NCBI GenBank assembly: GCA_036023115.1
Contig: JAYKKT010000089.1
Location: 13,522,001 to 13,586,000 of the forward strand
Length of the DNA stretch: 64,000 bases
Source: Brasenia schreberi
Lineage: Eukaryota; Streptophyta; Magnoliopsida; Nymphaeales; Cabombaceae
Reading direction: 5' to 3'
Shown: one piece after another, positions 9,089-60,089 of the stretch
How the letters are laid out: every line of letters begins with the position of its first letter
How positions within the stretch are numbered: position 1 is the stretch's first letter
Translations under genes and position numbers: made by a program
Notes under the pieces: model-generated
Database searches by the model: none
Told to the model about the DNA's origin: nothing
Seen by the model: only the letters and a program-made list of their open reading frames with translations

Positions 9089-9854
9089 AACAAAATGTAT
9101 TTAGATTCAAAATATTGTGCTTATAATATGAATTTTGATACAAACTTGTAACTTTTTTGTGTTGATATGCTTCTTGTAATATTTTGTTCGAAATTGGAAT
9201 GATATTGTTTCATAATTCATTGTATGATTGTATCCAAGTTTGTATTTGCTTGTTTGTTCATGAACTATTTAATACGAGTTTGTTGTGAGTTTATGTAATA
9301 TGTAGGAAGATTGCACTACGAAGTACGAGTTTAAAACAGGTATGCCATATCATAATCACTTTCATTTTGTTATACCTTTTTCATTGATTTTGAGCTAACT
9401 TCATGAAAATCGTTCAGATATTAAGATGGATGTGCAAGATATGCATAGCTTTAAATCTGCTTCATTTGATGTTGACATGTTGTGATTGACAAAGGTTTAT
9501 CTATCTCTTCATTAATTCTTTTTTGTATATGTTGGTCTTGCTTATATGTTGTTGACTTCATTATTCTAATTTATGATATTCTTGAAATGATGCTTCTTCA
9601 TGAGGAACTCTTGATTCTCTTATGGGAAGCACTGCAACCCCAATGATAGGGATCGCCTTTTATGTTGGTTTCAGATCTTTTCTTGCAAATTCAATTCACG
9701 ACTTCTGGTATGTGTTTGTTGTTTAATTGTTCTTACTTTGAAGAAGAATATAAATGCCATTCTCATAGTCATAGTTAGAATAAAATTATTCACAAACACT
9801 AGAATGCTCTTTAAAATATAGAATGCTCTATATAATTGTGTGTATATATATATA

Positions 9855-9861
9855 TATATAT

Positions 9862-9900
<39 letters not shown>

Positions 9901-9906
9901 TTTTTT
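9855..9906. repeat. (TTTA)n microsatellite, left arm only
   Basis: About 12 TTTA units after a short TA run, inside the hAT 3' region. The right-arm copy near 59390 keeps only the TA run, which accounts for the roughly 57-bp length difference there. Confidence 0.9.
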
Positions 9907-9910
9907 AATA

Positions 9911-10000
9911 CTGCCGTACCCGTACCTTAGTTTTTTTTAGAAAATTGCGTACCCCGTACCCGTACCCATACCGGGTACCGATACCGTACCCGTATCCATG
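9911..10000. promoter_or_regulatory. hAT right subterminal motif array
   Basis: About ten GTACC/GGTAC motifs within 90 bp of the right terminus, mirroring the left side. Also present at the truncated right-arm copy, 59301-59390. Confidence 0.7.
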
Positions 10001-10008
10001 CAACATAG

Positions 10009-10016
10009 AAGAAAAC
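10009..10016. repeat. 8-bp hAT target-site duplication (right)
   Basis: AAGAAAAC directly after the right inverted repeat. The reverse complement GTTTTCTT is also kept next to the hAT end in the right arm (59284-59291). Confidence 0.93.
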
Positions 10017-10904
10017 CCATTACAACTACCATCTTTAATATGAAGAATTGAAGTTATAAAACACAAAGTATAAAGTTAACATTATCTTTGATTCAAATTT
10101 GCATGGTTGATCTTACCAATTGAATAATAGAGATATGGGTTTTGTGTTGTTCTCTATGAGTTCGTTAAATCCAAATTCTATGTATATGGTAAACAGTTTT
10201 GAGTTAAGAGGAACCAAAATTGCAGTATCACCTTAAGAATGGAAGGAACGGAGATTGCTTTGTAGAATCTTGGAGTTGAATGAATGCATAGGTAAAGAGC
10301 AAGTAGACACTGAAGGCACAATAGTTGACTAGACAGTGCAGTACTGCACTCATGTCGACCTCTGGGAACACGGTAAATTACAGTTGAAAAGGAAGACAAA
10401 AATTTGTTGCTTTTAATTATGTAGACATAAATAAATATTAAAATAAATTGCAAACTTTCTCACCGTGCAAGTTGTGTATTGGAATTTATTGAGGGTCCCC
10501 ATGGCCGAGCAAAACAAGAACTTAATTCAATTACATCAAATGTGTTCAAGCTCTCTAATACTTGATCCAATTCCCTCATAGGAATGTTTTGAGCTGTTTT
10601 AAAGCGCCCACTCGGACGGACAAGGGGTCGAAACGGACCGGACAGACTTTCGGTATTTTCGAAAGGGTACTCCTTTTAGCTTCAATCAAAAGGACTTCCA
10701 ATTTTTTATATTTTCCTTCATTCGGATTTGATTCTATTCCTAATTTAGGATTTTCATGGATAAACCTTTTTCCATTGAGTTAAGCTGTAGGGATATGGGA
10801 AATAATTACCATGGTCCCTTCTGAAGCGTCCCGTGGTTTAAGGCAAAGAGACAGAAAATTGCTCTTTTCAGCTTTGGTTTTTCCTTTTCAATCTTTTTTT
10901 TTTC
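10017..10904. other. Left-arm unique sequence, no gene recognised
   Basis: Its mirror is about 58290-59283. It holds the 62-bp repeat at 10594-10655. Reading frames here are not conserved convincingly between arms beyond neutral identity. No homology recognised. Confidence 0.5.
10594..10655. repeat. 62-bp GC-rich dispersed repeat (copy 1)
   Basis: Begins CTGTTTTAAAGCGCCCACTC and ends in GACTTTCGGTA. Nearly identical copies lie at 24194-24255 (same strand) and at about 58645-58706 (mirror). Its GC content is well above its surroundings. Confidence 0.85.
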
Positions 10905-11136
10905 TCAATCAAAGAGAAGACCTCTTTTGGAGGAGTTTTTGTATTTCTTCTTTTTATCAGAAGTGAAGACATCGTTTTAGAGGAGTTTTTGCATTCTCTT
11001 TTCTTTCTTTTTTTTCATTCAAAGAGAAGACCTCTTTTTAGAGGAGTTTTTGCATTCTCTTTTCTTTCTTGTTACTCATTCAAAAAGAAGACCTCTTTCG
11101 GAGGAGTTTTTGTATTCTCTCTTTCTATTCGAAGGG
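10905..11136. repeat. Tandem repeat, about 60-bp unit, beside LTR (left)
   Basis: Four imperfect units, each with GAAGACCTCTTTT, GGAGGAGTTTTTG and a pyrimidine-rich spacer. The last unit abuts the TGTAGACA LTR terminus at 11137. A single unit recurs at about 15248-15285 beside another LTR edge, so the motif belongs to the retrotransposon's 3' untranslated or polypurine-tract region. Confidence 0.8.
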
Positions 11137-11900
11137 TGTAGACATGAAAATCTTTACTCCAAAGTTTATTGAAAACTTGAAGCAGACCTTTTCTATCTAC
11201 TTGATGCGCAAGCGTGCCAGCTAGTTTGTCAAAACTAGCAAAATTTTGAAAATCTAATTTCTTGTGACAATTGGGCTAAACGAGTTCTTTTCACTTAAAC
11301 CTTTTTGAACCACTGCTCAAGAGTTGTTTATGCGCTTAGAAACTTCGATTTTGAAAAGAATGAACTCCAATCCACGTGAAACTTAAGAGTTTTCAAAGTT
11401 GCAAAGTGAAGATGAAGTGTGCTTTGGTTCAAAAACTTGAAACTCATTAAGTTTTGAAAAACAGAACTGATTATGTTTTTAAGATCTTATTCCCGAATTT
11501 TTCTAGGTGGTCTAGGGATCTCTAAAATTCACAAAAATTTCATAGGATGTTTCCTGATATGTTGGGATCCTAAATTTTTATCTCGAATTTTGGGATAACC
11601 AATTCAGAGAATTAAATCTGGAACCAGTCCTAACTTCACTGTTTCAAGAGGTTCTGTAACAGAAATACAGATGCTCAATCAATTCTCTATATCTCGGTGT
11701 ACAGAACTCCAAATATCATGATTTTAGTCGTTTTGAAAAGTTATGATTGTTAGCTTTCTAATGAGACTAATTTAAGCCAAATTGGATTCCTATGAAAAGA
11801 GATATGAGACTTTTACCCAACCTCTATCTTAGAAAATCTTATATGCAGAAAATAGAAACAGTTTTATTCAGTTTTTATGGGACTGTACCGAACTTCAAAG
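11137..11900 (-). mobile_element. 3' half of a Tat-type LTR (left)
   Basis: From its TGTAGACA terminus this stretch matches 12839-13600 almost base for base and in the same orientation. It then stops at about 11900, where gag sequence begins. It is the U5-side part of a 3' LTR fused to a truncated gag by an internal deletion. The deletion is shared with the right arm. Confidence 0.75.
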
Positions 11901-11996
11901 AAGCGCTTTCAATTCGATTTTGAAATTTTTAATGATGAGCATTACTGTGCATCCTTCAGAGATGGGCTCTCTTACTTGCCCAAGGAGGGACCTCCA

Positions 11997-12703
11997 TCAA
12001 ACGATGAATGCATGGGCATCCTTGTTCGATGCTTGTTTCGTGTCCCTAAGGGTGTTCAAAGTGGGCGTCACCTCCACATTATGGGAGAATCGTTGCATGA
12101 AACAATTCACTAACTCTTCAAAAGTCACGAATTGGCTCAAGTCATATGATGCTAACCACTTTGAAGCAGTTCCCTTAAGGAAGAGGGGGAACTTGTAGAT
12201 CCATTTAGCAGAGTCTTTCTTTTTCTTATATGCTCTATGGGAAAAGAGTTGGAGTTGGGATGTAGGATCCCCAGTTCCATCATACTGGTAGAAATTCGGT
12301 ATGTAATCATCGCTATCCGTTTGATAATCAGATGGAAGAAAGTCGGATAGGGCGTATGATCTCTTTTCCTTTGCTTGGCCTTTTAGTAATTGTTGAAGAG
12401 CCTTTCGATCTTTCAAAGTGAAAGACGCATACTCTTTATCCCCCTCTACGATTGAGGTTTCCTTGGGCTTCTTAGACTTACTCATCTTTTTTGGACCCTC
12501 GCTTGTTTTTCGTGAGACGAGCATGATTCGACCATCTCGGCCTCTTGGCTAAGTGCAGCGATGCTTGCTTCGAACTCTTTTCTTAAATCTTCAAGCGACT
12601 CTTTCTTATTTTTGAAAGCTACTTTCGAAAATCTTTTGGAAAGAGGACTTGACGAGCATGAAGCCCGACTCGACACTTCATATGAATTATCTGAACTTGA
12701 CAT
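11997..12703 (-). pseudogene. Ty3/gypsy gag fragment (left)
   Basis: Two overlapping frames on the minus strand. 12703-12482 gives a Ser-rich N-terminal region ending KQARVQKR. 12524-11997 gives 175 residues with FYQYDGTGDPTSQLQLFSH, then FPLFLKGTASKWLASYDLSQ and FEELVNCFMQRFS, the standard retrotransposon gag (capsid) core. The frames overlap by about 43 nt, so a frameshift probably splits one original gag. The coding sequence stops abruptly after AHAFIV and joins LTR sequence: zinc knuckle, protease and pol are gone. Gag would form the particle around element RNA. The mirror in the right arm differs by a few residues. Confidence 0.8.
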
Positions 12704-12816
12704 GATTTATAGACTTTAAAAAACCCAACCTGTGCACAAGTTTAACAAAGTTAAACATGTTTTTGAAAGGTTTTTTGGAGTTCACTTGTTTGAAATGAAA
12801 GTTCCTTAAGACTCGA

Positions 12817-12837
12817 GTCCCACCGGGCGTACCAATT
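12817..12837 (-). other. Primer binding site (left)
   Basis: TTGGTACGCCCGGTGGGAC immediately inside the LTR end, a form common in plant Tat-type Ty3/gypsy elements. The right-arm equivalents are at 56351 and, for the related element, 49428. Confidence 0.6.
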
Positions 12838-12838
12838 C

Positions 12839-14693
12839 TGTAGACATTAAAATCTTTACTCCAAAGTTTATGGAAAACTTGAAGCAGAGCTTTTCTATAT
12901 ACTTGATGGGCAAGCGTGCCAGCTAGTTTGTCAAAACTAGCAAAATTTTACAAATTGGATTTCTTGTGGCAATTGGGTTAAGCGAGTTCTTTTCACTTAA
13001 AACCTTCTTCAACCGCCATTTAAGGGTTGGTTTAAGCGCTTAGAAACTTCGATTTTGAAAAGAATGAACTCCAATCCATGTGAAACTTAAGAGTTTTCAA
13101 AGTTGCAAAGTGAAGATGAAGTGTGCTTTGGTTCAAAACTTGAAACTCATCAAGTTCTGAAAAACAAAACTGACTCTATTTTTCAAATCTTATTCTCGAA
13201 TTTTTCTAGATGGTCTAGGGATATCTAAAATTCACAAAATTTCACAGGGTGTTCCCTGATGTGTTGGGATCCTAGATTTTTATCTCGAATTTTGGGACAA
13301 CCAATTCAGAGAATTAAATTGGGAACCAGTCCTAACTTCACTGTTTCAAGACGTTCTGTAACAGAAATATAGAGGCTCAAATAATCCTCTATATCTCGGT
13401 ATACAAAACTCAAATATCGTGATTTTAGTCATTTTAGAAAGCTATGGATGCTATCTTTCCAATGAGACTAATTTCAGCCAAATTGGATTTCTGTGGACAG
13501 AGATATGAGACTTTTACCTAATTCTTGTTTTACGAAATTCGACTGTATAGAAAACAAAAACAGTTTTATCCGATTTTCCCAATTTTATTCATGGGGTTGC
13601 ACTATCCTAAAATTCTTGAAAAATTTATTTCTAATGGAGTAGTGTGTGTAGTTGTTGTTCCTAAAATTTCAGAGTGATTGGATCACGGAATAGAGAATTA
13701 AAGTGATCAGCCTCACCTTTTGCTAGAGTTTCTCTCACCTAGCTACTCTCCCCAAGATAGAATTCTCTAAGTGATGCTAGATAGGGAACCCGCCCACCCC
13801 CTTGGCCCTTTTTATGCTGGTTGGGCCAGCCATCTTGGCCTTCCTTTGATCCACCCGACCCACTTTTGAGTGGTCCCCTTGGTGGTGAATTGGACTAGCC
13901 CCATGTGGGTTGGTCTTGAGTGTAGCCGGCCTTGACTAGGTTCCCTCCTTGGTCCTTACTTCAACCGACTAGAGTGTCATGGACTTGGCTAAGGTCGATG
14001 CACTTTAGCTGGATCATTCCACTTGATGAACCTGGTTCTTTCCATGGTGCCTTGGACCAGCCCCATGTGGGTTGGTCTAGGGTGCCACGACTTGAGCTTG
14101 AATGTGGTCAATTGGTGCAACCGGTCTTAGCTTTCCTTATCATTTTTTTACAACTTGATTCAATACTCTTGGTCGGACCTAGCTAGGTTTTTCTCATTCA
14201 GTCATGCTTGATCTTGCCTCTTGAATGGTTCACGTTCCACTTTGATTTTGACTCCACCCATATTGATCTTTAGCTCCCTTCTTGATTTGCTGGTCTCGAG
14301 TTTTTCTTTTGATCCTCGCCTGGCTTTGAATGAGTTCGTCTTGAATAAGCTTACTCTTTTTACCCAATCTTGATCCTGGTTTGGGCCTTGGTTGGGTTCA
14401 AACTTGGATCGAATTGTTTTGTTTTGCTGGTCTCGAGTTTTTCTTTTGATCCTCGCCTGGCTTTGAATGAGTTCGTCTTGAATAAGCTTGCTCTTTTTAC
14501 CCAATCTTGATCCTGGTTTGGGCCTTGGTTGGGTTCAAACTTGGATCGAATTGTTTTGTTTATAAATTGAATTTAAAACTCTTAAAACCTTTGAAAATCT
14601 TTTAAAAGCTGGTTTTTCAACTTTGTAAAGTTATAAAGGTTTAAAATTCTTCTTTTGGGAATTTTGAAAACATTTTTATTTTAGGTGTTTACA
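12839..14693 (-). mobile_element. Tat-type LTR, complete (left)
   Basis: On the minus strand it starts TGTAAACACC (14693) and ends TGTCTACA (12839), 1855 bp. It is followed by a primer-binding-site-like TTGGTACGCCCGGTGGGAC at about 12817-12837. The other side is preceded by a purine run AAAGAGGGACATG that looks like a polypurine tract, so this one LTR seems to serve two element bodies. It contains a 137-bp tandem duplication (14289-14562) absent from the right arm and has lost the TATA-like stretch the right arm keeps. Confidence 0.75.
14289..14562. repeat. 137-bp tandem duplication in LTR, left arm only
   Basis: Two adjacent near-identical units (14289-14425, 14426-14562) starting GCTGGTCTCGAG. 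The right-arm LTR has a single unit near 54740-54870. Confidence 0.9.
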
Positions 14694-15075
14694 CATGTCC
14701 CTCTTTGGCATTAATCCAAATATATTTCGATAATGTCAAAGAAGAAAACACCCTTTGTTTTTCTTCCTTAACCTTTTCTCGAGAATATGAATCATCCCAA
14801 TTTTCTTAAAACCCTTTTCTTTATGATAGGTAAGAGGAGATTCGAGCCAAAGGGGACTTCGCTTATGGTGGTTCTAGTCTTAATTGGGATCATGTACTCA
14901 ACGACCTTGCATGCATTCATGGGTATGAATGGTATGAGTGGGTGACATGAGTGATGTATTGGAATGTGACTTTCTAGAGAACTTTAAGCATACAATGACT
15001 TAACTTGGGGAGAGGCTTACGAAGGTCGGATTTCTCAAGTGAGATGATCTTATGTTGCTTGATGTTCTGGGGTTT
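14694..15075 (-). mobile_element. Retrotransposon 3' untranslated fragment (left)
   Basis: Lies between the complete LTR and a partial LTR. It ends on the minus strand in a purine-rich AAAGAGGGACATG right before TGTAAACACC, as expected for a polypurine tract. No coding homology seen. Mirror 54226-54608. Confidence 0.55.
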
Positions 15076-15246
15076 TCAAAATTCATTTTAAAACTTCGAT
15101 CGAATTGTTTTGTTTATAAATTGAATTTAAAACTCTTAAAACCTTTGAAAATCTTTTAAAAGCTGGTTTTTCAACTTTGTAAAGTTATAAAGGCTTAAAA
15201 TTCTTCTTTTGAGAATTTTGGAAACATTTTTATTTTGGGTGTTTAA
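15076..15246 (-). mobile_element. Partial LTR, first 170 bp only (left)
   Basis: Matches the first 170 bp of the LTR at 14693 (AAACACCCAAAATAAAAATG onward on the minus strand) and then diverges. It is the truncated 3' LTR of the inner Tat element body. Mirror 54056-54225. Confidence 0.7.
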
Positions 15247-15879
15247 AAGGGGAAGATCTCTTTTTGGAGGAGTTTTTGTATTCTCTTTTTCTTTTGAATA
15301 TTGCCAATTTTTCTTTTGGAGAGAGAAGTAAAATGGGGAGAAAACTTATCCCTTTGCTACTCAATTAAGCCAAGATCATCCCATTTCCTAATGGCATCTA
15401 CCATTTGAAAATATTTTGCTATTTTGAACAAGGTTTCATTTTGTAAGCCAAGGATTTTTGAAATATTACCAAATGATTTTGAAAAACTCTACTTTTCATA
15501 AATCATCAATTACCTCATTTAGGGTCATACAATCAATCTTGATCCTTCTTTCAAGAAGTTCAAAGGAGATCCATTTTAAAATCTTTTCGAAAGAATTTAA
15601 CATAGACCCTATACATAATATTTTTTTCTAAGTAATGGTCATTTATAGGGTCTACTAAACTTCTGCCCTCAACATCAAGCAATCAATATGCATTATTGAT
15701 TTTTTCGTTGCCCCTTTTTATGATATGGGGACATTCCTACTTGGGCTGCCACCCTTTTGGGCCTCTTTGGGTGAATGATGTGCATGTGATGCATGATATG
15801 TGAAAATGTATTCCATATGATATGACGAAGATACATGCCTTATAAGATGATGAATATTATTCAGTTTCCATTAAAGGTG
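15247..15879 (-). mobile_element. Tat element 3' region, no ORF (left)
   Basis: Between integrase remains and the partial LTR. It ends in a purine-rich stretch with one copy of the roughly 60-bp GGAGGAGTTTTTG repeat. Nothing coding seen. Confidence 0.5.
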
Positions 15880-16260
15880 TTGAGGGAATGCATTCTACAT
15901 GCCCCTAGTTTGGTGGAGATGGGTCCTATGATATCAAATGCTCACATGGTGAAGGGCCACGGGCTCACAATGGAATGCAAGGTGGATGATGGGATATGAA
16001 TGGCATGTCCATGCATTTGCCATTAATGACATTTCCTAATATGATCATGACAATCTTGCTTAAGAGTGGACCAAGAACAACTGGCCCTAAGTATCTTCAT
16101 GGCCATCATATTTGCATTGACATGACCAACACATTCTCCACCATGGAATTCATGTATTATATCCTAACCTCATTAAGGTCTACATATCTCAACAAGATGC
16201 CGGAAAAAATTCTTTTTATAAAGAATCCCTCCCAAAATCACATATCGGGTTGAAATTTTT
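15880..16260 (-). pseudogene. Ty3/gypsy integrase fragment (left)
   Basis: Minus-strand frames broken by shifts show HGGECGGHVNANMMAMKIL, then a KCH-type Cys-His pair and WPFTM followed by FDIIGPIS. These match the H2C2 zinc finger and the start of the integrase core (WPF..W..DIIGP). Only the N-terminal part remains. Confidence 0.6.
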
Positions 16261-16439
16261 TGAATAAAAAGTTTATCTTTAGAAAAAGCAAATTTGAGAA
16301 ATCCTCTATTTTCCAAAAAGTTTTAATGTCTTGAAAACAAGGTTTTTCCATTGAATGTTGGTCATTTTGGTAAATCTCCAAATCATGGGTGAGTGCCAAG
16401 TGTGCATGATTTGAAAGAATCGACCAATGTAGTGGCCAA

Positions 16440-17365
16440 TTCATGGTATGTTATGAGTTTTTCATTTTTGACTTGCCAAATTTTCGAAACTTGGTTTATA
16501 ACAAGCATATAATCTCCAAAGACTTCAGTACATGATGTCCCTAGATTTTCAAAATTTTTAGGCCTTGTATGAATACTTCATACTCGGCAACATTATTTGA
16601 TCACGCAAAATCTAGTCAAATGGCAGTTGGGATTTCCCCTTTCTCGGGAGATATGAGGATGAGTCCTTCACCTGACCCTTGTTGACTCTTAGCCCCATCA
16701 AAATACATTTTTCATACTTGATCTTTATTAAAATAATTTGCTAAAACATGATTTTGAAATTCATTTGCAAATATGCCTTCATCGGGCATTTCATCAATTA
16801 TGGGATATGTATCTTCAAGTGGCAATTCAGCCATATGATCGGCTAGGGAGTGTCCCTTAATGGAGGTTTTGAAGATAAAATTTTAAATCATACTCCACTA
16901 AGAGGAGCTGTCATTTACCTAGCCTACCCGTTAGGATAGGTTTTTCAAACAAGTGCTTGATTGGATCAAGTTTAGACACTATCCAAATTTCATGATCTAG
17001 GAAATAATGTCTAAACTTTTTGCAAGCCCATACCAAGGCCAAGCACATTTTCTCTATGGCTTGATAATTTCTTTCATATGCTAATAGAGTTTTTGAAATG
17101 TAGTAAATAACATACTCCTTATGGATATCATCTTCATATTGAGCAAAGAAATCACCCAATGCATTCGCATGTATGGAAATGTAAAGCAATAATGGTTTTC
17201 CTTGCTTTGGAGGTTTTAAAATCGGAGGATTCATCAAATAAGTTTTCAATCTTTCGAAAGCTTTTTGGCAATCGGAATCCCATTCAAATTTAACCCCTTT
17301 TCTTAAAAGCCTATTGAAAGGTTCACATCTTGTTGCTAAAGTGGAGATAAATCTCCTGATTGCTT
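16440..17365 (-). pseudogene. Ty3/gypsy RT tail plus two RNase H domains (left)
   Basis: The longest open part (17249-16911, 112 residues) reads MNPPILKPPKQGKPLLLYIS, then YYISKTLLAYERNYQAIEK and FRHYFLDHEIWIV, the RNase H that follows RT in Ty3/gypsy elements. Upstream, TRCEPFNRLLRKGVKFEWDS is the RT connection. Downstream, through frameshifts, come a second RNase H-like region (KMYFDGAKS, ISPEKGEIPTAIRLDFA, NNVAEYEAFIQGLK). A second RNase H is a known hallmark of the Tat lineage. The RT catalytic core is absent. Confidence 0.75.
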
Positions 17366-17646
17366 GGAGTCAACCTTGGAGGCTTCGGATTTGAGTCAAG
17401 TTGGAGGGTGGAGGCATGTCTATGATGGCTCGACACTTAGAGGTTCAACTTCAATGCCCCTTTGGCTTACCACAAACTCTTTTATAAGCTTTTGCTTAAT
17501 GGGTTTCATATTGGATTCTAAGGATAGACGATTCCATGAGTTTTGAGTCTAGACCAGGTATGTCTTTATATGTCCATGCAAATATAGGATTTCAAAAATG
17601 TAATGAATGATGCAAACATGCACATACTTTGGGTTAGACTCACTCC

Positions 17647-17946
17647 CTAAAAATCCTCTTCTACGGAACTTAAAGGGTTTTCCAAGTCAAGGATTCTATG
17701 AAATTCGGGAAGCTCGGAGGCTTGATCTTCCTCATGTATGAGGGGATCTTCCTCCTTGATTTGATCATTCTCAAGCACTTTAATTTCTAGGGAAGTGTTG
17801 GGCAAGAGAGTCGGATTGCGAATGATAAACTTGGACGATTTTGGTTTTGGAAATATATACAATTTTGGAAGAACTTGAAAATTGGCTTTGTACATGGCCA
17901 ATATTTTTGAAATTTTCATTTTTTTTTTTTTTTTAATCTTTTTCAA
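17647..17946 (-). pseudogene. Tat element internal ORF, function unrecognised (left)
   Basis: 99 residues: a basic N terminus, then an acidic tail (KEEDPLIHEEDQASELPE, LDLENPLSSVEEDF). It sits between the G-patch ORF and the RNase H remains, where protease and RT should begin. No catalytic motif seen. The right-arm copy (51354-51653) has few changes. Confidence 0.5.
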
Positions 17947-18171
17947 AACTCAAACTAAAAAGATCAATATAAGAGACTTTCTTTTTGAGGCTTTTTTCAA
18001 AACAAAGAATAGGAAAATGAATGTAAACAATTTTCTTTTTCAAAATTTCAGATTTTTCAAATGTTTTTGGGTTTTGAGAATTTTCTAATTGGTTTATCCA
18101 AATATATAATTTTTTTAGATTTTTTTCTAAAGATGGATCTTCCATCAAACCTACAAAGAAAACGCTATGAA

Positions 18172-18474
18172 TTAGACTCTAAACAAGATGTCTAAGCCAT
18201 AGGTTTCGGTGTTAGTGGGTTCTAGGGCACCCTTGACCCAAGTGGTCTTAGGTGGTGGTTCAAGGGGTATGGATGGGATGTATCCCAATCTATATCGACT
18301 TGGGTTTGGATTTGGTAGGATGGGTTCTAGCCTACCTTGGTTATGGGCTCCTAGACCTTGGTAAGGTGTGTATCCCATATTCAACATCATGTTCCAAGGC
18401 TTCTTGAGTTTTGAATTTTTTTTGTAAAATGGATGGCCTTGGATTCGAGTGTCATCAATATCATAGATATACAC
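18172..18474 (-). pseudogene. Tat element G-patch-like ORF (left)
   Basis: 100 residues. NMGYTPYQGLGAHNQGRLEP matches the G-patch seen near the protease/RT boundary of many plant Ty3/gypsy (Tat) polyproteins. The protein is identical in the right arm (50826-51128), although this could just reflect recent duplication. Confidence 0.65.
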
Positions 18475-18759
18475 ACGACTTATTTTGGGTAGGAATTGAG
18501 AGGTATGGATGGTGGAAGACTTGGGTTTGATCCTAGGTTTGGATGGCTTGGACTTGGGATTTATCCTAGGTGCAACCCATTATGCCCCTAGGGGTGGACG
18601 ACTTATGTTTATTTGAGTGCAAAGGGAAAACATGCTTGATCCCTTGCACTATGGAAATGTAAGGATTCCAAGGAAAACCATGGTCGGTCCCTTGGTGCAT
18701 TTATGAAGGTTTATGACTATAGGCTTGGGTTCATGATACAAACCTAAGCTCAAGGAGAC

Positions 18760-22830: not shown

Positions 22831-22853
22831 TATATGCATGAAGGTCCTAGTAT

Positions 22854-22856
<3 letters not shown>

Positions 22857-22918
<62 letters not shown>
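22857..22918. repeat. Compound microsatellite (TC)n(TA)n
   Basis: About 15 TC then about 15 TA units, directly downstream of LINE A. Confidence 0.95.
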
Positions 22919-22919
<1 letters not shown>

Positions 22920-49427: not shown

Positions 49428-50540
49428 GAATTGGTACACCCCGTGGGACTCGAGCATTAAGAAACTTCAACTTAGGTGATCTCCAATTCCAAGTTTTCAA
49501 AATCGTGGTGTTCATAAGTGCACAAATTGATTTCAAAATCAATGTCTATAGATGATTCATTCGAAAACAAGCCGAGGAAATCCTCATCGCATGTCTCAAA
49601 ATGGTTTTCCAAATCCTCTAAAACCCGAGATGAAGAGCTTGCTTTCCTAAGGGAAATAGAAAAGAAAATCGATGCTCTAAGCCACAAGGCTAAGTCGCAT
49701 CGATCACATGAAAATTTATCTCGGGTGCATAAAGAGAAAAAGCATATCTGAAAAACCAAATTTAGCCCAGAATTCGATGAAGGAAATGAGGCTTCAAATG
49801 CAGCAACTGTTAAGATTGAATCATCTAACCTTGCCCATCCCCCAAGCATCCCATTCTCCATGGAAAAATTTAAAAAAAGCATTTTATGTTTCAAAAGACC
49901 AAAAAAATTTGGAAAATCTTCAAAAACCAAAAAAACTTGAAAATCAAAAATTTGAAATTCCAAAATTGAAAATGAAGTCCACATTTTCGAGCACACAAAT
50001 AGAGTGGGGCGTGAGATCCACATCACTTCACAAACATTCACTCCGACAGGTTCAAATCCCTTGAGAATCACTCCACATATTTCACAAGTTCCATAAGAGG
50101 ATGAGTGTTGCACACACGTAGGCTTAGAGGATGAAATCCAAAACCTCAAAAAGCAATGGGAGCTCGAAGCCATGCATGAGCTAGAGCAACTTGAGAACGC
50201 CTGCAAGGATGCTTGCTCTCACCATGAAAAGGTAGACAAGCTTGAAAAAGGTATGTCTAGATCTCATTCCCCCATAAACTCCCCACTCAATCCTCCCCTT
50301 CTTAGTGTAGGATTGACAATTAATTCATATACATTGGATGTATCGAATCACACTCATGCGCCCACATACCCACTCAATGATTCTCAAAATGTGGATTTTA
50401 AAGGTGTGCCGAATGTCCCGCACCAAGAAAAGGAATTTCAAAAAGAAAAACAAAATAACGTTCAAAATATAGTAGACATGGTTACTCCTAAGGCATGCAT
50501 CGACATCCTAGGTACACCTAATCCTACCATGCATGAATAA
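49428..50540 (+). pseudogene. Tat element N-terminal gag-like ORFs (right)
   Basis: The frame 49518-49751 (DDSFENKPRKSSSHVSKWFS, EELAFLREIEKKIDALSH) resembles the N-terminal gag ORF of the second Tat body (56486-56707) in layout: Ser-rich, then SKxFSK, then EIEKKIDALS-like. 50172-50540 encodes a coiled-coil-like stretch followed by Pro/Ser-rich sequence. The capsid core seen at 56665 is not recognisable here, so this body may have lost it or carry a different ORF. Confidence 0.5.
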
Positions 50541-50825
50541 GTCTCCTTGAGCCTAGGTTTGTATCATGAACCCAAGCCTATAGCCATAAACCTTCATAAA
50601 TCCACCAAGGGACCGACCATGGTTTTCCTTGGAATCCTTACCTTTCCAAAGTGCAAGGGATCAAGCATGTTTTTCCTTTGCACTCAAATAAACATAAGTC
50701 GTCCACCCCTAGGGGCATAATGGGTTGCACCTAGGATAAATCCCAAGTCCAAGCCATCCAAACCTAGGATCAAACCCAAGTCTTCCACCATCCATACCTC
50801 TCAATTCCTACCCAAAATAAGTCGT

Positions 50826-51128
50826 GTGTATATCTATGATATTGATGACACTCGAATCCAAGGCCATCCATTTTACAAAAAAAATTCAAAACTCAAGAAG
50901 CCTTGGAACATGATGTTGAATATGGGATACACACCTTACCAAGGTCTAGGAGCCCATAACCAAGGTAGGCTAGAACCCATCCTACCAAATCCAAACCCAA
51001 GTCGATATAGATTGGGATACATCCCATCCATACCCCTTGAACCACCACCTAAGACCACTTGGGTCAAGGGTGCCCTAGAACCCACTAACACCGAAACCTA
51101 TGGCTTAGACATCTTATTTAGAGTCTAA
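50826..51128 (+). pseudogene. Tat element G-patch-like ORF (right)
   Basis: Same 100 residues as the left arm, with NMGYTPYQGLGAHNQGRLEP. Preceding codons include in-frame stops. Confidence 0.65.
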
Positions 51129-51353
51129 TTCATAGCGTTTTCTTTGTAGGTTTGATGGAAGATCCATCTTTAGAAAAAAATCTAAAAAAATTATATATTT
51201 GGATAAACCAATTAGAAAATTCTCAAAACCCAAAAACATTTGAAAAATCTGAAATTTTGAAAAAGAAAATTGTTTACATTCATTTTCCTATTCTTTGTTT
51301 TGAAAAAAGCCTCAAAAAGAAAGTCTCTTATATTGATCTTTTTAGTTTGAGTT

Positions 51354-51653
51354 TTGAAAGGGATAAAAAAAATAAAAAAAATGAAAATTTCAAAAATATT
51401 GGCCATGTACAAAGCCAGTTTTCAAGTTATTCCAAAATTGTATATATTTCCAAAACCAAAATCGTCCAAGTTTATCATTCACAACCCGACTCTCTTGCCC
51501 AACACTTCCCTAGAAATTAAAGTGCTTGAGAATGATCAAATCAAGGAGGAAGATCCCCTCATACATGAGGAAGATCAAGCCTCCGAGCTTCCCGAAATTC
51601 ATAGAATCCTTGACTTGGAAAACCCTTTAAGTTCCGTAGAAGAGGATTTTTAG
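51354..51653 (+). pseudogene. Tat element internal ORF, function unrecognised (right)
   Basis: Mirror of 17647-17946 with a few substitutions. Acidic C terminus. Followed by only about 280 bp before the RNase H region, so protease and RT core are missing from this body in both arms. Confidence 0.5.
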
Positions 51654-51934
51654 GGAGTGAGTCTAACCCAAAGTATGTGCATGTTTGCATCATTCATTAC
51701 ATTTTTGAAATCTTATATTTGCATGGACATATAAAGACATACCTGGTCTAGACTCAAAACTCATGGAATCGTCTATCCTTAGAACCCAATATGAAACCCA
51801 TTAAGCAAAAGCTTATAAAAGAGTTTGTGGTAAGCCAAAGGGGCATTGAAGTTGAACCTCTAAGTGTCGAGCCATCATAGACATGCCTCCACCCTCCAAC
51901 TTGACTCAAATCTGAAGCCTCCAAGGTTTACTCC

Positions 51935-52860
51935 AAGCAATCAGGAGATTTATCTCTACTTTAGCAACAAGATGTGAACCTTTCAATAGGCTTTTAAGAA
52001 AAGGGGTTAAATTTGAATGGGATTCCGATTGACAAAAAGCTTTCGAAAGATTGAAAACTTATTTGATGAATCCTCCGATTTTAAAACCTCCAAAGCAAGA
52101 AAAACCATTATTGCTTTACATTTCCATACATGCGAATGCATTGGGTGCTTTCTTTGCTCAATATGAAGATGATATCCATAAGGAGTATGTTATTTACTAC
52201 ATTTCAAAAACTCTATTAGCATATGAAAGAAATTATCAAGCCATAGAGAAAATGTGCTTGGCCTTGGTATGGGCTTGCAAAAAGTTTAGACATTATTTCT
52301 TAGATCATGAAATTTGGATAGTGTCTAAACATGATCCAATCAAGCACTTGTTTGAAAAACCTATCCTAACGGGTAGGCTAGGTAAATAACAACTCCTCTT
52401 AGTGGAGTATGATTTAAAATTTTATCTTCAAAACCTCCATTAAGGGACACTCCCTAGCCGATCATATGGCTGAATTGCCACTTGAAGATACATATCCCAT
52501 AATTGATGAAATGCCCGATGAAGGCATATTTGCAAATGAATTTCAAAATCATGTTTTAGCAAATTGTTTTAATAAAGATCAAGTATGAAAAATGTATTTT
52601 CATGGGGCTAAGAGTCAACAAGGGTCAGGTGAAGGACTCATCCTCATATCTCTCGAGAAAGGGGAAATCCCAACTGCCATTCGACTAGATTTTGCGTGAT
52701 CAAATAATGTTGCTGAGTATGAAGCATTCATACAAGGCCTAAAAATTTTGAAAATCTAGGGACATCATATATTGAAGTCTTTGGAGATTATATGCTTGTT
52801 ATAAACCAAGTTTCAAAAATTTGGCAAGTCAAAAATGAAAAACTCATAACATACCATGAA
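51935..52860 (+). pseudogene. Ty3/gypsy RT tail plus two RNase H domains (right)
   Basis: Mirror of 16440-17365. 52051-52389 is the open 112-residue RNase H part. The second RNase H-like region (about 52460-52750) has DHMAELPLEDTYPI, GAKSQQGSGEGLILIS and NNVAEYEAFIQGLK with stops and shifts. Confidence 0.75.
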
Positions 52861-53039
52861 TTGGCCACTAGATTGGTCGATTCTTTCAAATCATGCACAC
52901 TTGGCACTCACCCACGATTTGGAGATTTACCAAAATGACCAACATTCAATGAAAAAACCTTGTTTTCAAGACATTAAAACTTTTTGGAAAATGGAGGATT
53001 TCTCAAATTTGCTTTTTCTAAAGATAAAGCTTTTTATTC

Positions 53040-53420
53040 AAAAAATTTCAACCCGATATATGATTTTGGGAGGGATTCTTTATAAAAAGAATTTTTCTCG
53101 GCATCTTGTTGAGATATGTAGACCTTAATGAGGTTAGGATATAATACATGAATTCCATGGTGGAGAATGTGGAGGTCATGTCAATGCAAATATGATGGCC
53201 ATGAAGATACTTAGGGCCGGTTGTTCTTGATCCACTCTTAAGCAAGATTGTCATGATCATGTTAGGAAATGTCATTAATGGCAAATGCATGGACATGCCA
53301 TTCATATCCCATCATCCACCTTGCATTCCATTGTGAGCCCGTGGCCCTTCACCATGTGAGCATTTGATATCATAGGACCCATCTCCACCAAACTAGGGGC
53401 ATGTAGAATGCATTCCCTAA
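53040..53420 (+). pseudogene. Ty3/gypsy integrase fragment (right)
   Basis: HGGECGGHVNANMMAMKIL zinc-finger start and SPWPFTM, FDIIGPIS of the core, frame-shifted. Mirror of 15880-16260. Confidence 0.6.
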
Positions 53421-54055
53421 ACACCTTTAATGGAAACTGAATAATATTCATCATCTTATAAAGCATGTATCTTCGTCATATCATATGGAATACATTTTCA
53501 CATGTCATGCATCACATGCACATCATTCACCCAAAGAGGCCCAAAAAGGTGGCAACCCAAGTAGGAATGTCCCCATGTCATAAAAAGGGGCAACGAAAAA
53601 ATCGATAATGCATATTGATTGCTTGATATTGAGGGCAGAAGTTTAGTAGACCCTATAAATGACCAATACTTAGAAAAAAATATTATGTATAGGGTCTATG
53701 TTAAATTCTTTCGAAAAGATTTTAAAATGGATCTTCTTTGAACTTCTTGAAAGAAGGATCAAGATTGATTGTATGACCCTAAATGAGGTAATTGATGCTT
53801 TATGAAAAGTAAAGTTTTTCAAAATCATTTGGTAACATTTCAAAAATCCTTGGCTTACAAAATGAAGCCTTGTTCAAAATAGCAAAATATTTTCAAATGG
53901 TAGATGCTATTAGGAAATGGGATGATCTTGGCTGAATCGAGTAGCCAAAGGGATAAGTTTTCTCCCCATTTTACTTCTCTCTCTAAAAGAAAAATTGACA
54001 ATATTCAAAAGAAAAAGAGAATACAAAAACTCCTCCAAAAAGAGGTCTTCCCCTT
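53421..54055 (+). mobile_element. Tat element 3' region, no ORF (right)
   Basis: Ends in a purine-rich tract with one CAAAAACTCCTCCAAAAAGA unit right before the partial LTR. No coding sequence seen. Confidence 0.5.
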
Positions 54056-54608
54056 TTAAACACCCAAAATAAAAATGTTTCCAAAATTCTCAAAAGAAGA
54101 ATTTTAAGCCTTTATAACTTTACAAAGTTGAAAAACCAGCTTTTAAAAGATTTTCAAAGGTTTTAAGAGTTTTAAATTCAATTTATAAACAAAACAATTC
54201 GATCCAAGTTTTAAAATGAATTTTGAAAACCCCAGAACATCAAGCAACATAAGATCATCTCACTTGAGAAATCCGACCTTCGTATGCCTCTCCCCAAGTT
54301 AAGTCATTGTATGCTTAAAGTTCTCTAGAAAGTCACATTCCAATACATCACTCATGTCACCCACTCATACCATTCATACCCATGAATGCATGCAAGGTCG
54401 TTGAGTACATGATCCCAATTAGGACTAGAACCACCATAGGCGAAGTCCCCTTTGGCTTGAATCTCCTCTTACCTATCATAAAGAAAAGGGTTTTAAGAAA
54501 ATTGGGATGATTCATATTCTCGAGAAAAGGTTAAGGAAGAAAAACAAAGGGTGTTTTCTTCTTTAACATTATCCAAATACATTTGGATTAATGCCAAAGA
54601 GGGTCATC
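54056..54608 (+). mobile_element. Partial LTR plus 3' fragment of another Tat copy (right)
   Basis: 54056-54225 matches the first 170 bp of the LTR at 54609. 54226-54608 is unrelated to the LTR and ends in AAAGAGGGTCATC, a polypurine-tract-like run, just before the complete LTR. This is the debris of a recombination between two element copies. Confidence 0.6.
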
Positions 54609-56350
54609 TGTAAACACCTAAAATAAAAATGTTTTCAAAATTCCCAAAAAAAGAATTGTAAACCTTTATAACTTTACAAAGTTGAAAACCAGCTTTTAAA
54701 AGATTTTAAGAGTTTTAAATTCAATTTATAAACAAAACAATTCGATCCAAGTTTGAACCCAACCAAGGCCCAAACCAAGATCAAGATTGGGTAAAAAGAG
54801 CAAGCATATTCAAGACGAACTCGTTCAAAGCCAGGCAAGGATCAAAAGAAAAACTCGAGACCAGCAAATCAAGAAGGGAGCTAAAGATCAATATGGGTGG
54901 AGTCAAAATCAAAGTGGAACGTAAACCATTCAAGAGGCAAGATCAAGCATGGCTGAATGAGAAAAACCTAGCTAGGTCCGACCAAGAGTATTGAATCAAG
55001 TTGTAACAAAATGCCAAGGAAAGCTAAGACCGGTTGCATCAATTGGCCACATTCAAGCTCAAGTCATGGCACCCTAGACCAACCCACATGGGGCTGGTCC
55101 AAGGCACCATGGAAGGAACCAGGTTCATCAAGTGGAATGATCCAGCTAAAGTGCATCGACCTTAGCCAAGTCCATGACACTCTAGTTGGTTGAAGTAAGG
55201 ACCAAGGAGGGAACCTAGTCAAGGCCGGCTACACTTAAGACCAACCCACATGGGGCTGGTCCAATTTACCACCAAGGGGACCACTCAAAAGTGGGTCGGG
55301 TGGATCAAAGGAAGGCCAAGATGGCTGGCCCAACCCGCCCCAAAGAGGGGCCTAGAAGCCAGCCCCTTGGCTTATAAAAAGGGCCAAGGGGGTGGGCGGG
55401 TTCCCTATCTAGCATCACTTAGAGAATTCTATCTTGGGGAGAGTAGCTAGGTGAGAGAAACTCTAGCAAAAGGTGAGGCTGATCACTTTAATTCTCTATT
55501 TCGTGATCCAATCCCTCTGAAATTTTAGGAACAACACCTACACACACTACTCCATTAGAAATAAATTTTTCAAGAATTTTAGGATAGTGCAACCCCGTGA
55601 ATAAAATTAGGAAAGATCGGATAAAACTGTTTCTGTTTTCTATACAGTCGGATTTCGTAAAACAAGAATTAGGTAAAAGTCTCATATCTCTGTCCATAGA
55701 AATCCAATTTGGCTGAAATTTGTCTCATTGGAAAGCTAGCATCCATAGCTTTCTAAAATGACTAAAATCATGATATTTGAAGTTTTTTACACGAGATATA
55801 GAGGATTATTTGAGCCTCTATATTTTTGTTACAGAACATCTTGAAACAGTGAAGTTAGGACTGGTTCCTGATTTAATTCTCTAAATTGGTTGTCCCAAAA
55901 TTCGAGATAAAAATCTAGGATCCCAACACATCAGGGAACACCCTGTGAAATTTTGTGAATTTTAGATATCCCTAGACCATCTAGAAAAATTCGGGAATAA
56001 GATTTGAAAAATAGAGTCAGTTCTGTTTTTCAGAACTTGATGAGTTTAAAGTTTTGAACCAAAGCACACTTCATCTTCACTTTGCAACTTTGAAAACTCT
56101 TAAGTTTCACATGGATTGGAGTTCATTCTTTTCAAAATTGAAGTTTCTAAGCTCTTAAACCAATCCTTAAACGGCGGTTGAAGAAGGTTTAAGTAAAAAG
56201 AACTCGCTTAACCCAATTACCACAAGAAATCCGATTTGTAAAATTTTGCTAGTTTTGACAAACTAGCTGGCACGCTTGCACATCAAGTATATAGAAAAGC
56301 TCTGCTTCAAGTTTTTCATAAACTTTGGAGTAAAGATTTTAATGTCTACA
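54609..56350 (+). mobile_element. Tat-type LTR, complete (right)
   Basis: TGTAAACACC to TGTCTACA, 1742 bp. It is flanked by a polypurine-like run upstream and a primer-binding-site-like GAATTAGCACGCCCGGTGGG downstream, so it is both a 3' and a 5' LTR. It keeps a TATA-like box at 55373-55380 that the left copy has lost. Confidence 0.78.
55373..55380 (+). promoter_or_regulatory. TATA-like box in LTR (right arm only)
   Basis: TATAAAAA preceded by CT and followed by GGGCC, mid-LTR, a plausible U3 promoter element. The left arm reads CATAAAAA because a roughly 45-bp deletion ends there. Confidence 0.5.
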
Positions 56351-56485
56351 GAATTAGCACGCCCGGTGGGACTCGAGTCTTAAGGAACTTTCATTTCAAA
56401 CAAGTGAACTCCAAAAAACCTTTCAAAAACATGTTTAACTTTGTTAAACTTGTGCATAGGTTGGGTTTTTTAAAGTCTATAAATC

Positions 56486-57192
56486 ATGTCAAGTTCAGAC
56501 AATTCATATGAAGTGTCGAGTCGAGCTTCATGCTCGTCAAGTCCTCTTTCCAAAAGATTTTCGAAAGTAGGTTTCAAAAATAAGAAAGAGTCGCTTGAAG
56601 ATTTAAAAAAAGAGTTCGAAGCAAGCATCGCCGCACTTAGCCAAGAGGCCGAGATGGTCGAATCATGCTCGTCTCACGGAAAACAAGCGAGGGTCCAAAA
56701 AAGATGAGTAAGTCTAAGAAGCCCAAGGAAACCTCAATCGTAGAGGGGGATAAAGTGTATGCGTCTTTCACTTTGAAAGATCGAAAGGCTCTTCAACAAT
56801 TACTAAAAGGCCAAGCAAAGGAAAAGAGATCATACGCCCTATCCGACTTTCTTTCATCTGATTATCAAACGGATAGCGACGATTACATACCAAATTTCTA
56901 CCAGTATGATGGAACTGGGGATCCTACATCCCAACTCCAACTCTTTTCCCATAGAGCATATAAGAAAAAGAAAGACTCTGCTAAATGGATCTATAAGTTC
57001 CCCCTCTTCCTTAAGGGAACTGCTTCAAAGTGGTTAGCATCATATGACTTGAGCCAATTCGCGACTTTTGAAGAGTTAGTGAATTGTTTCATGCAACGAT
57101 TCTCCCATAATATGGAGGTGACGCCCACTTTGAACACCCTTAGGGACACGAAACAAGCATCGAACAAGGATGCCCATGCATTCATCGTTTGA
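56486..57192 (+). pseudogene. Ty3/gypsy gag fragment (right)
   Basis: Mirror of 11997-12703: the frame 56486-56707 (Ser-rich N terminus) overlaps 56665-57192 (FYQYDGTGDPTSQLQLFSH, FPLFLKGTASKWLASYDLSQ, FEELVNCFMQRFS). It ends after AHAFIV and runs into LTR sequence within about 110 bp. Few residue differences from the left. Confidence 0.8.
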
Positions 57193-57299
57193 TGGAGGTC
57201 CCTCCTTGGGCAAGTAAGAGAGCCCATCTCTAAAGGATGCACAGTAATGCTCATCATTAAAAATTTCAAAATTGAATTGAAAGCTCTTCTTTGAAGTTC

Positions 57300-58052
57300 T
57301 GTACAGTCCCATAAAAACTGAATAAAACTGTTTCTATTTTCTGCATAGTCAGATTTTCTAAGATAGAGGTTGGGTAAAAGTCCCATATCGCTTTTCATAA
57401 GAATCCAATTTGGCTTAAATTAGTCTCATTAGAAAGCTAACATTCATAACTTTTCAAAACGACTAAAATCACGATATTTGGAATTCTGTACACCGAGATA
57501 TAGAGAATTGATTGAGCATTTGTATTTCTGTTACAGAACCTCTTGAAACAGTGAAGTTAGGACTGGTTCCAGATTTAATTCTCTGAATTGGTTATCCCAA
57601 AATTTGAGATAAAAATTTACTATTCCAACATATCAGGAAACATCTTGTGAAATTTTTGTGAATTTTGGAGATCCCTAGACCATCTAGAAAAAATCGGGAA
57701 TAAGATCTGAAAAACATAGTCAGTTCTGTTTTTCAAAACTTAATGAGTTTCAAGTTTTGAACCAAAGCACACTTCATCTTCACTTTGCAACTTTGAAAAC
57801 TCTTAAGTTTCACATGGATTAGAGTTCATTCTTTTCAAAATCGAAGTTCCTAAGCACTTAAACCAACCCTTGAGCGGCGGTTCAAAAAGATTTAAGTGAA
57901 AAGAAGTCGTTTAGCCCAATTGTCACAAGAAATCAGATTTTCAAAATTTTGCTAGTTTTGACAAACTAGCTGACACGCTTGCGCATTAAGTAGATAGAAA
58001 AGCTTTACTTAAGTTTTCAATAAACTTTGGAGTAAAGATTTTCATGTCTACA
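57300..58052 (+). mobile_element. 3' half of a Tat-type LTR (right)
   Basis: Mirror of 11137-11900. Matches the second half of 54609-56350 and ends TGTCTACA at 58052. Confidence 0.75.
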
Positions 58053-58290
58053 CCCTTCGAATAGAAAGAGGGAATACAAAAACTCCTCCGAAAGAGGTCT
58101 TCTTTTTTAATGAGAAACAAGAAAGAAAAGAGAATGCAAAAACTCCTCTAAAAAGAGGTCTTCTCTTTGAATGAAAAAAAAAGAAAGAAAAGAAAATGCA
58201 AAAACTCCTCTAAAATGATGTCTTCACTTCTGATAAAAAGAGGAAATACAAAAACTCCTCCAAAAGCGGTCTTCTCTTTGATTGAGAAAA
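58053..58290. repeat. Tandem repeat, about 60-bp unit, beside LTR (right)
   Basis: Mirror of 10905-11136: units with CAAAAACTCCTCC and AAAGAGGTCTTC next to purine-rich AGAAAGAAAAGA spacers, immediately after the LTR end at 58052. Confidence 0.8.
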
Positions 58291-58460
58291 AAAAAAGATT
58301 GAAAAGGAAAAACAAAAGCTGAAAAGAGCAATTTTCTGTCTCTTTGCCTTAAACCACGGGACGCTTCAGAAGGGACCATGGTAATTATTTCTCATATCCC
58401 TACAGCTTAACTCAATGGAAAAAGGTTTAACCATGAAAATCCTAAATTAGGAATAGAATC

Positions 58461-58569
58461 TACTTATGTGGAATTCATTTTGTTTGAGAATTAGACTCTA
58501 TTATGTGAGAAATGGAACTTTGAAATGTTTTCCAAATTTCCTACAAAACCTCTACTAAGTTGTATATAT
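58461..58569. other. 110-bp insertion, right arm only
   Basis: Interrupts GAATC/ATCCGAATG, which is nearly continuous in the left arm (about 10720-10735). Source not found in this window. Confidence 0.75.
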
Positions 58570-58644
58570 TGAAATCCGAATGAAGGGAAATATAAAAATT
58601 GGAAGTCCTTTTGATTGAAGCTAAAAGGAGTACCCTTTCGAAAA

Positions 58645-58706
58645 TACCGAAAGTCTGTCCGGTCCGTTTCGACCCCTTGTCCGTCCGAGTGGGTGCTTTA
58701 AAACAG
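58645..58706. repeat. 62-bp GC-rich dispersed repeat (right-arm mirror)
   Basis: Reverse complement of the 10594-10655 copy, at the mirrored position. Confidence 0.8.
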
Positions 58707-59291
58707 CTCAAAACATTCCTATGAGGGAATTGGATCAAGTATTAGAGAGCTTGAACACATTTGATGTAATTGAATTAAGTTCTTGTTTTGCTCGGCCATG
58801 GGGACCCTCAATAAATTCCAATACACAACTTGCACGGTGAGAAAGTTTGCAATTTATTTTAATATTTATTTATGTCTACGTAATTAAAAGTAACAAATTT
58901 TTGTCTTCCTTTTCAACTGTAATTTACTGTGTTCCCAGAGGTCGACATGAGTGCAGTACTGCACTGTCTAGTCAACTGTTGTGCCTTCAGCGTCTACTTG
59001 CTCTTTACCTGTGCGTTCATTCAACTCCAAGATTCTACAAAGCAATCTCCGTTCCTTCCATTCTTAAGGTGACACTGCAATTTTGGTTCCTCTTAACTCA
59101 AAACTGTTTACCATATACATAGAATTTGGATTTAACGAACTCATAGAGAACAACACAAAACCCATATCTCTATTATTCGATTGGTAAGATCAACCATGCA
59201 AATTTGAATCAAAGATAATGTTAACTTTATACTTTGTGTTTTATAACTTCAATTCTTCATATTAAAGATGGTAGTTGTAATGGGTTTTCTT

Positions 59292-60089
59292 CTATGTTGC
59301 ATGGATACGGGTACGGTACCAGTACCCGGTACGGGTACGGGTACGGGGTACGTAATTTTCTAAAAAACTAAGGTACGAGTACGGCAGTATTAATATATAT
59401 ATATACACAATTATATAGAGCATTCTATATTTTAAAGAGCATTCTAGTGTTTGTGAATAATTTTATTCTAACTATGACTATGAGAATGGCATTTATATTC
59501 TTCTTCAAAGTAAGAACAATTAAACAACAAACACATACCAGAAGTCGTCAATTGAATTTGCAAGAAATATCTGAAACCAACATAAAAGGCGATCCCTATC
59601 ATTGGGGTTGCAGTGCTTCCCATAAGAGAATCAAGAGTTCCTCCTGAAGAAGCATCATTTCAAGAATATCATAAATCAGAATAATGAAGTCAACAACATA
59701 TAAGCAAGACCAACATATACAAAAAGAATTAATGAAGAGATAGATAGACCTTTGTCAATCACAGCATGTCAACATCAAATGAAGCAGATTTAAAGCTATG
59801 CATATCTTGCACATCCATCTTAATATCTGAACGATTTTCATGAAGTTAGCTCAAAATCAATGAAAAAGGTATAATAAAATGAAAGTGATTATGATATGGC
59901 ATACCTGTTTTAAACTCGTACTTCGTAGTGCAATCTTCCTACATATTACATAAACTCACAACAAACTCGTATTAAATAGTTCATGAACAAACAAGCAAAT
60001 ACAAACTTGGATACAATCATACAATGAATTATGAAACAATATCATTCCAATTTCGAACAAAATATTACAAGAAGCATATCAACACAAAA
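59292..60089 (-). mobile_element. hAT right end, truncated copy (right arm)
   Basis: Terminal repeat CTATGTTGCATGGATACGGG at 59292 with the neighbouring GTTTTCTT target-site half (59284-59291). It runs about 800 bp inward to the palindrome's outer break in the 3' untranslated region of the transposase. No transposase coding sequence is left. Confidence 0.9.

Follow-up and report, generated by a model that had tools for sequence, protein, structure and literature searches.

The window, that is, the whole 64,000-nucleotide stretch of DNA analysed here, comes from a plant genome of 1.06 Gb, in which its contig measures 42.8 Mb, and forms part of a gene cluster that is rich in direct and inverted duplications. 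Judged by their domains and by relatives that bear this name, the genes of the cluster are predicted plant fatty acyl-CoA reductases (FAR): A protein of ~490 residues matches NAD_binding_4 (PF07993, E 3e-71) and Sterile (PF03015, E 2.8e-15). BLASTN of the window against itself returns six inverted blocks, from 9151-10737/60093-58564 through 25836-34169/46471-38141, which form one chain with identities of 94.7-98.7%, gaps counted. Together with a global alignment of arm versus arm, they delimit the following parts:

9151..34169, plus strand: left arm (25.0 kb), inverted match to 38141-60093
38141..60093, minus strand: right arm (22.0 kb), from self-BLASTN and global alignment
34170..38140, unstranded: spacer, 3,971 bp, natively continuous with the right arm

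The ~51-kb imperfect palindrome with arms of 22-25 kb and a 4-kb spacer that a sequence-only reading had proposed is thereby borne out; its ends had been placed with an error of no more than 4 bases, and the sums of paired coordinates step from 69,244 in the outer to 72,310 in the inner part, as had been claimed. The window thus holds what is expected of a fold-back duplication, namely two inverted, collinear and highly similar copies of a single multi-kb locus, and the longest block (8,346 columns, 98.7% identity) excludes a chance origin of the match. Across 21,260 paired sites the arms differ by 388 substitutions (1.83%; 275 transitions and 113 transversions) and by 35 gaps, ten of which comprise at least 15 bases. 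A simple mirrored read is thereby ruled out, and the earlier argument to the same effect, from substitutions and independent indels, holds also with regard to the polarity provided by a third arm copy (see below). For structured RNA, Rfam at gathering thresholds gave no match in the window.

The genes and repeats that matter for the history of the arms are these:

35535..41906, plus strand: remains of gene FAR-a (PF07993), interrupted by LINE A; matched parts 35535-35735, 35888-35983, 35974-36078, 41275-41373 and 41685-41906, the last containing one stop
30397..31028, minus strand: FAR match in the left arm that mirrors the second part of FAR-a
60164..63131, plus strand: FAR-b copy beyond the right arm, first exons missing, stops in one matched stretch
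36756-41243, plus strand: LINE A, 36742..41257 with its 14-bp target duplications (36742-36755 and 41244-41257)
31046..34169, minus strand: left-arm copy of LINE A, which retains its 3' target duplication (31046) and breaks off at 34169
26493..29793, plus strand: LINE C, with 19-bp target duplications
11137..13577 (approximate extent), minus strand: old LTR-like element with 0.74-kb direct repeats (88% alike) and a mirror copy in the right arm

All FAR copies within the reported arms are broken. Intact paired genes, as they are known from the arms of ampliconic palindromes, occur here only outside the reported arms, where mirror blocks contain two intact FAR-c genes whose products differ in 3 of 492 residues. 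Within LINE A, at about 38560-39855, lies an inverted piece of LINE sequence; the insertion of LINE C is shared by the right arm (42510-45814) and the third copy. Between the repeats of the LTR-like element lies a short gag-like frame (12000-12548) whose gag match falls below the Pfam cut-off. The idea that a FAR copy in the right flank preserves the precise empty site of LINE A was dropped: This copy is free of the LINE, but since it, along with three other copies, appears without about residues 251-275 of the probe, it does not represent a pre-insertion site.

How the arms were joined can be read from two junctions:

34169..34181, unstranded: fold junction J1, comprising the left-arm end, an 11-bp filler (34170-34180) and the native spacer start
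60094..60163, unstranded: outer junction J2, a 70-bp filler patched out of both flanks

LINE A and its matching target duplications straddle the boundary between spacer and right arm at 38141. Because LINE A crosses this position, spacer and right arm are natively joined, and the truncated copy is the left arm; the locus hence displays the offset spacer, native to one arm, and the broken junction at the other arm (J1) that characterize a fold-back. For the filler at J1 a template is not clearly evident, as its 9-mer cover is equalled by 56 of 1000 shuffles and its longest match by 14 of 300. At J2, 44 of the 70 filler bases lie in exact flank words of at least 9 bases (shuffle mean 3.2), a value reached by none of 1000 shuffles, from which we take this filler to be templated from both sides. 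In a genome search with 34020-34320, in which 40 of 6,355 candidates were scored, no match spanning J1 was listed other than the window itself.

The direction of change within the arms is provided by the third arm copy (T) at -63921..-43265, negative numbers denoting bases before the window. T contains all three stretches that are absent from one arm:

21511..23238, plus strand: 1,728 bp without right-arm counterpart, at the step from the outer, more diverged to the inner, less diverged arm
24059..25835, plus strand: 1,777 bp without right-arm counterpart, with 4-bp TCAG at each end
49214..49682, minus strand: 469 bp without left-arm counterpart, from the arm alignment and the third copy

Since T has both large left-only stretches, these mark deletions in the right arm, and since it also has the 469-bp right-only stretch, this one marks a deletion in the left arm; with T as the reference, independent deletions occurred in both arms. 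The same yardstick was applied to substitutions. Relative to T, the left and right branches are similar, with 102 (left) and 115 (right) private changes in the outer arms and 22 and 12 in the inner arms; the ratio of arm-private to T-private changes is 217:353 in the outer versus 34:172 in the inner part (Fisher p = 4.5e-9). Judged against this copy, the inner arms resemble each other more closely than their own mutation rate would allow, and a lower mutation rate behind the likeness is ruled out by the comparison. The excess suggests gene conversion as its cause, which we infer from this difference in rates; alternatively, the inner likeness could stem from a second, younger duplication.

Mirror homology, interrupted and of mixed ancestry, extends beyond the arms as far as about -18.4 kb on one side and +79.4 kb on the other (~98 kb), in three further inverted block pairs:

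-7096..-5360 with 60164-61920
-8798..-7091 with 62982-64684
-18377..-8795 with 69802-79355

While the long inverted repeat proposed by the earlier reading is itself upheld, its 51 kb do not stand alone, being the inner portion of a more extensive but broken mirror arrangement within the FAR cluster. Portions of the arms recur at further places in the cluster, and the spacer/right-arm piece 35957-39053 has an extra copy at -21470..-18385. Compared with each of three other copies, FAR-b shows 57-59 private changes in its left and 2 in its right copy, and within part of block B the three copies lie at roughly equal distances from one another (12, 7, 6). By these private changes the outer blocks do not fit one clean event, and a single clean duplication of the whole 98 kb was dropped on the grounds that other or equally close copies exist for FAR-b and part of block B.

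We consider it probable that the palindrome is a real fold-back, that is, a head-to-head inverted segmental duplication in the FAR cluster, which subsequently underwent patchy conversion and erosion. In this scenario, one copy of the locus would have been broken inside LINE A (34169), inverted and joined to a second copy broken ~4 kb further along (34181); end-joining at J1 would have left the 11-bp filler, and the spacer would correspond to the 4-kb offset between both breaks. For the breakage route, which like the repair enzyme we infer, fusion of sister chromatids after breakage would suffice, as would a template switch during replication. As the copies evolved apart, the right arm lost ~1.7 and 1.8 kb and the left arm 0.5 kb by deletion, the right end would have come to stop at 60093 in the templated 70-bp filler, and arm-to-arm gene conversion may have raised the likeness in patches, chiefly in the inner 11 kb. 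Filler at joins is a feature of fold-back inversions and breakage-fusion-bridge duplications. With these, the locus shares the inverted copies, the offset spacer, the homology-free join and the short fillers (one clearly templated); it differs in that the palindrome is inherited, partly decayed and nested in an already tandem-duplicated cluster.

A real but multi-step origin, in which the inner inverted duplication is younger than the outer and gene conversion plays no part, strikes us as rather unlikely: The divergence step at 21511-23238 is sharp and upheld against the third copy, and the blocks beyond the arms differ in their closest copy, but in both copies the inner and outer arms keep one collinear order and share their surroundings, so that the second duplication would have needed to replace the first exactly, and no second fold junction was found within the arms. 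Lower still do we rate an assembly artefact, in which the head-to-head join would connect two haplotypes of one locus, making the arms alleles. Allelic differences of ~1.8% occur in outcrossing plants, the divergence of the arms is of comparable size, and the gap at J2 as well as the arm deletions could be allelic. An overlap-made join, however, is argued against by J1, where shared homology amounts to a few bases at most and where neither of the marks of such a join, a shared stretch or an N, is present. Moreover, the structure lies well inside its contig with two outer sides that are unlike in sequence, the third arm copy and many direct and inverted copies are found within 110 kb, and a second mirror-ordered FAR cluster exists on another contig (C36). 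That the palindrome as a whole is a mobile element, or a nested pair in opposite orientation, is suggested by the retrotransposon-rich arms, but we regard it as ruled out for practical purposes, as, among the 40 of 12,074 candidates scored, the query 14425-17500 has just three full-length matches (100, 97 and 95%), which sit within ~106 kb on this same contig, and otherwise shorter, dispersed ones nearly all at or below 91%, while the arms end inside a LINE or beside filler and the mirror order extends past their ends.

The related FAR cluster on C36 carries two copies per side of the right half of the J1 query, and the same search with 34020-34320 (40 of 6,355 candidates scored) did not find the J1 junction there. 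As C36 thus has this half without the junction, an ancestral fold shared with the contig of the window (C89) is not supported by the sequences. Tentatively, FAR loci may repeatedly become palindromic, with C89, C36 and perhaps C66 as separate mirror arrangements built of units of ~45-47 kb, in which conversion would keep genes such as FAR-c intact and alike. If true, this would be the counterpart, in an ordinary plant enzyme gene cluster, of the ampliconic palindromes of sex chromosomes.

Among the passages covered by a literature search, nothing closer was found than a palindrome of the Salix purpurea W chromosome, a plant sex-determining region, which is described there with arms of 20,071 and 19,550 bp, a spacer of 3,586 bp, more arm copies nearby and an uneven arm likeness attributed to gene conversion (Zhou et al. 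2020, PMC7023750). According to this description, both palindromes share arms of ~20 kb, a spacer of a few kb, extra arm copies nearby and uneven arm likeness; the Salix palindrome, however, contains other genes (PMC7023750), whereas FAR genes are found here, and the evidence for conversion here comes from comparing rates against a third copy in one species. At the soybean I locus, as portrayed in the relevant passages, an inverted cluster of chalcone synthase genes yields small RNAs that silence the family (PMC3534067). In both cases, a plant chromosome carries inverted copies from a single enzyme gene family; the soybean locus acts through small RNAs, whereas the FAR cluster is known from its DNA.

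An ordinary plant gene cluster can accordingly fold back on itself, and the wax-alcohol genes offer an example, in an enzyme cluster, in which the palindrome is well resolved, a third copy serves as a yardstick, the junctions can be read and a sister cluster is mirror-ordered as well. This opens the questions of how palindromes begin, of whether arms undergo conversion beyond sex-determining regions and of whether inverted duplication may be a regular route by which the wax-alcohol gene family is enlarged.

Comparison of the window with itself chains six inverted blocks into one palindrome, with arms at 9151-34169 and 38141-60093 and a spacer of 3,971 bp, and a global alignment of arm to arm counts 388 substitutions and 35 gaps over 21,260 paired sites: both bear out the coordinates and coordinate sums of the sequence-only reading. 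The palindrome claimed there is thus real, but the true structure is larger and more complex than reported. It lies in contig C89 (42.76 Mb; the window is 13522001-13586000), within an assembly of 1.055 Gb in 92 contigs, and is most likely biological in origin. Besides the palindrome, many direct and inverted duplications more than 96% alike occur across the 264 kb read.

The mirror continues beyond the reported arms (negative coordinates precede the window): -7096..-5360 mirrors 60164-61920 (62 of 1,724 sites differ), -8798..-7091 mirrors 62982-64684 (11 of 1,699) and -18377..-8795 mirrors 69802-79355 (81 of 9,545), giving a whole extent of about 98 kb. About 14.5 kb on the left (-5359..9150) have no counterpart between 60093 and 60164, and about 1.1 kb (61921-62981) and 5.1 kb (64685-69801) on the right have none on the left. 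Pieces of a hAT-type transposase (7483-9085; DUF659 and two dimerisation-domain halves below Pfam's cut-off) end 66 bp short of the left arm's outer end. The hAT transposase of the left flank has its closest relative in Sarracenia, although transposons say little about the relationships of their host.

The junctions reveal which arm is native. The retrotransposon LINE A (36756-41243), flanked by exact 14-bp repeats, crosses the arm boundary at 38141, so that spacer and right arm are native. Its left-arm copy ends at 34169, followed by 11 bases and then by sequence that has a different left neighbour elsewhere. When 301 bases across this fold junction were searched against the genome (best 40 of 6,355 candidates scored), only the window's own match among the 42 listed spans the junction; the others each cover the sequence on one side of it only. 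The word match of the 11-bp filler to its surroundings is reached by 56 of 1000 shuffles, the filler alone being too short for proof of templating, while the 70-bp filler at the right arm's outer end is patched from both flanks to a degree that none of 1000 shuffles reaches. The right half may be a single unit, about 44.75 kb long, of an earlier tandem array, as suggested by a direct repeat (34181-34989 and 78929-79737) whose copies differ at 8 of 809 sites.

A third copy of much of the arm (-63921..-43265) holds the stretches that the right arm lacks (from 21527 on, and 24059-25835) as well as 469 bp absent from the left; consequently, both arms lost sequence independently. The third copy itself lacks about 1.35 kb (20173-21526), ending where the right-arm deletion starts; the start of that 1.7-kb deletion and the end of the 1.35-kb one are at most 16 bases apart (21511-21527), in one LINE. 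Changes private to the arms and to the third copy stand at 217:353 over 8,309 outer sites and 34:172 over 5,342 inner sites (odds ratio 3.1, p = 4.5e-9), so that the inner arms are more alike than their own rate predicts. A younger second duplication is the rival account of this excess likeness, of which gene conversion is the likeliest cause.

Private-change counts in the outer blocks are mixed. Against each of three other copies, FAR-b, one of the fatty acyl-CoA reductase (FAR) genes of the cluster, has 57-59 private changes in its left copy and 2 in its right; the right copy therefore resembles other members of the cluster more than it does its mirror. Over part of block B the three copies are about equidistant (12, 7 and 6 private changes), and in the intervening block the mirror copies are nearer each other (7, 4 and 12). 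The counts at FAR-b and part of block B speak against a simple history, and because of this mixture the outer mirror blocks may have exchanged with, or derived from, other cluster copies. A block of 5.6-5.9 kb occurs three times in the cluster (-693..4887, -69780..-63931 and 79810..85721), in an order not collinear with the palindrome, one copy adjoining the third arm copy.

Matches to the FAR probe extend from -77.6 to +104.8 kb. Within the window all FAR copies are broken: LINE A interrupts FAR-a, which also contains a stop; FAR-b is missing its first exons, and one of its matched stretches holds stops. FAR-c lies as an intact pair at mirror positions outside the window:

-9267..-15744, minus strand, FAR-c left copy
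70274..76734, plus strand, FAR-c right copy

In a gene model built by a homology-guided script, both copies have ten exons, nine GT-AG introns and a predicted open frame of 492 residues; six coding positions differ, three of them changing residues. Pfam finds both PF07993 and PF03015 in the full FAR protein, and one or the other in five of ten short exon pieces. Among the best 120 of 1,926 relatives of one FAR protein from the cluster (8,000 candidates scored), three Nymphaea colorata proteins score highest (68-70% identity), and Victoria cruziana proteins come shortly after (69% identity across 87% of the query for one, 61% for another). On the strength of this single gene, the plant is probably related to the water lilies. 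Separately, a G-patch domain (PF01585, E 5e-8; 18175-18579, minus strand) lies in a reading frame that has RNase H sequence of a retrotransposon next to it (16914-17369).

Contig C36 (7.73 Mb) carries 27 FAR matches at 6.902-7.034 Mb, 15 minus followed by 12 plus. Of the 50 same-part pairs that could be formed, seven share a single stepping mirror axis (sums 13,920,270 to 13,924,740), and a second query places seven further pairs near it (13,921,598-13,921,612 and 13,924,658, sums added by hand). In one pair, read over 3 kb per side, the two sides agree at 98.3% across 2,708 columns; among matches that link C36 with the window's contig, the longer ones bearing FAR sequence show 91-95% likeness. 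Among the matches listed in the genome search (best 40 of 6,355 candidates scored), none in C36 crosses the fold junction. The simplest reading is that the two folds arose separately. The C36 cluster (6.896-7.033 Mb, L034-L038) has minus copies left and plus copies right, and two of its plus-copy groups are directly offset by about 47.1 kb (e.g. 6981736 and 7028858). A third FAR locus, on C66 (21.81-21.90 Mb), runs from minus-strand matches (21.81-21.82 Mb) to plus-strand ones (21.89-21.90 Mb), with one 55-bp and one 81-bp minus match as exceptions to this order; it may be another head-to-head arrangement.

If a plant substitution rate of about 6.5e-9 per site and year holds in this lineage, the outer-arm distance of 2-4% (K2P 0.022-0.037) would mean that the outer arms are some two to three million years old, as an order of magnitude only. 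The palindrome is a further instance of an already known kind of structure.
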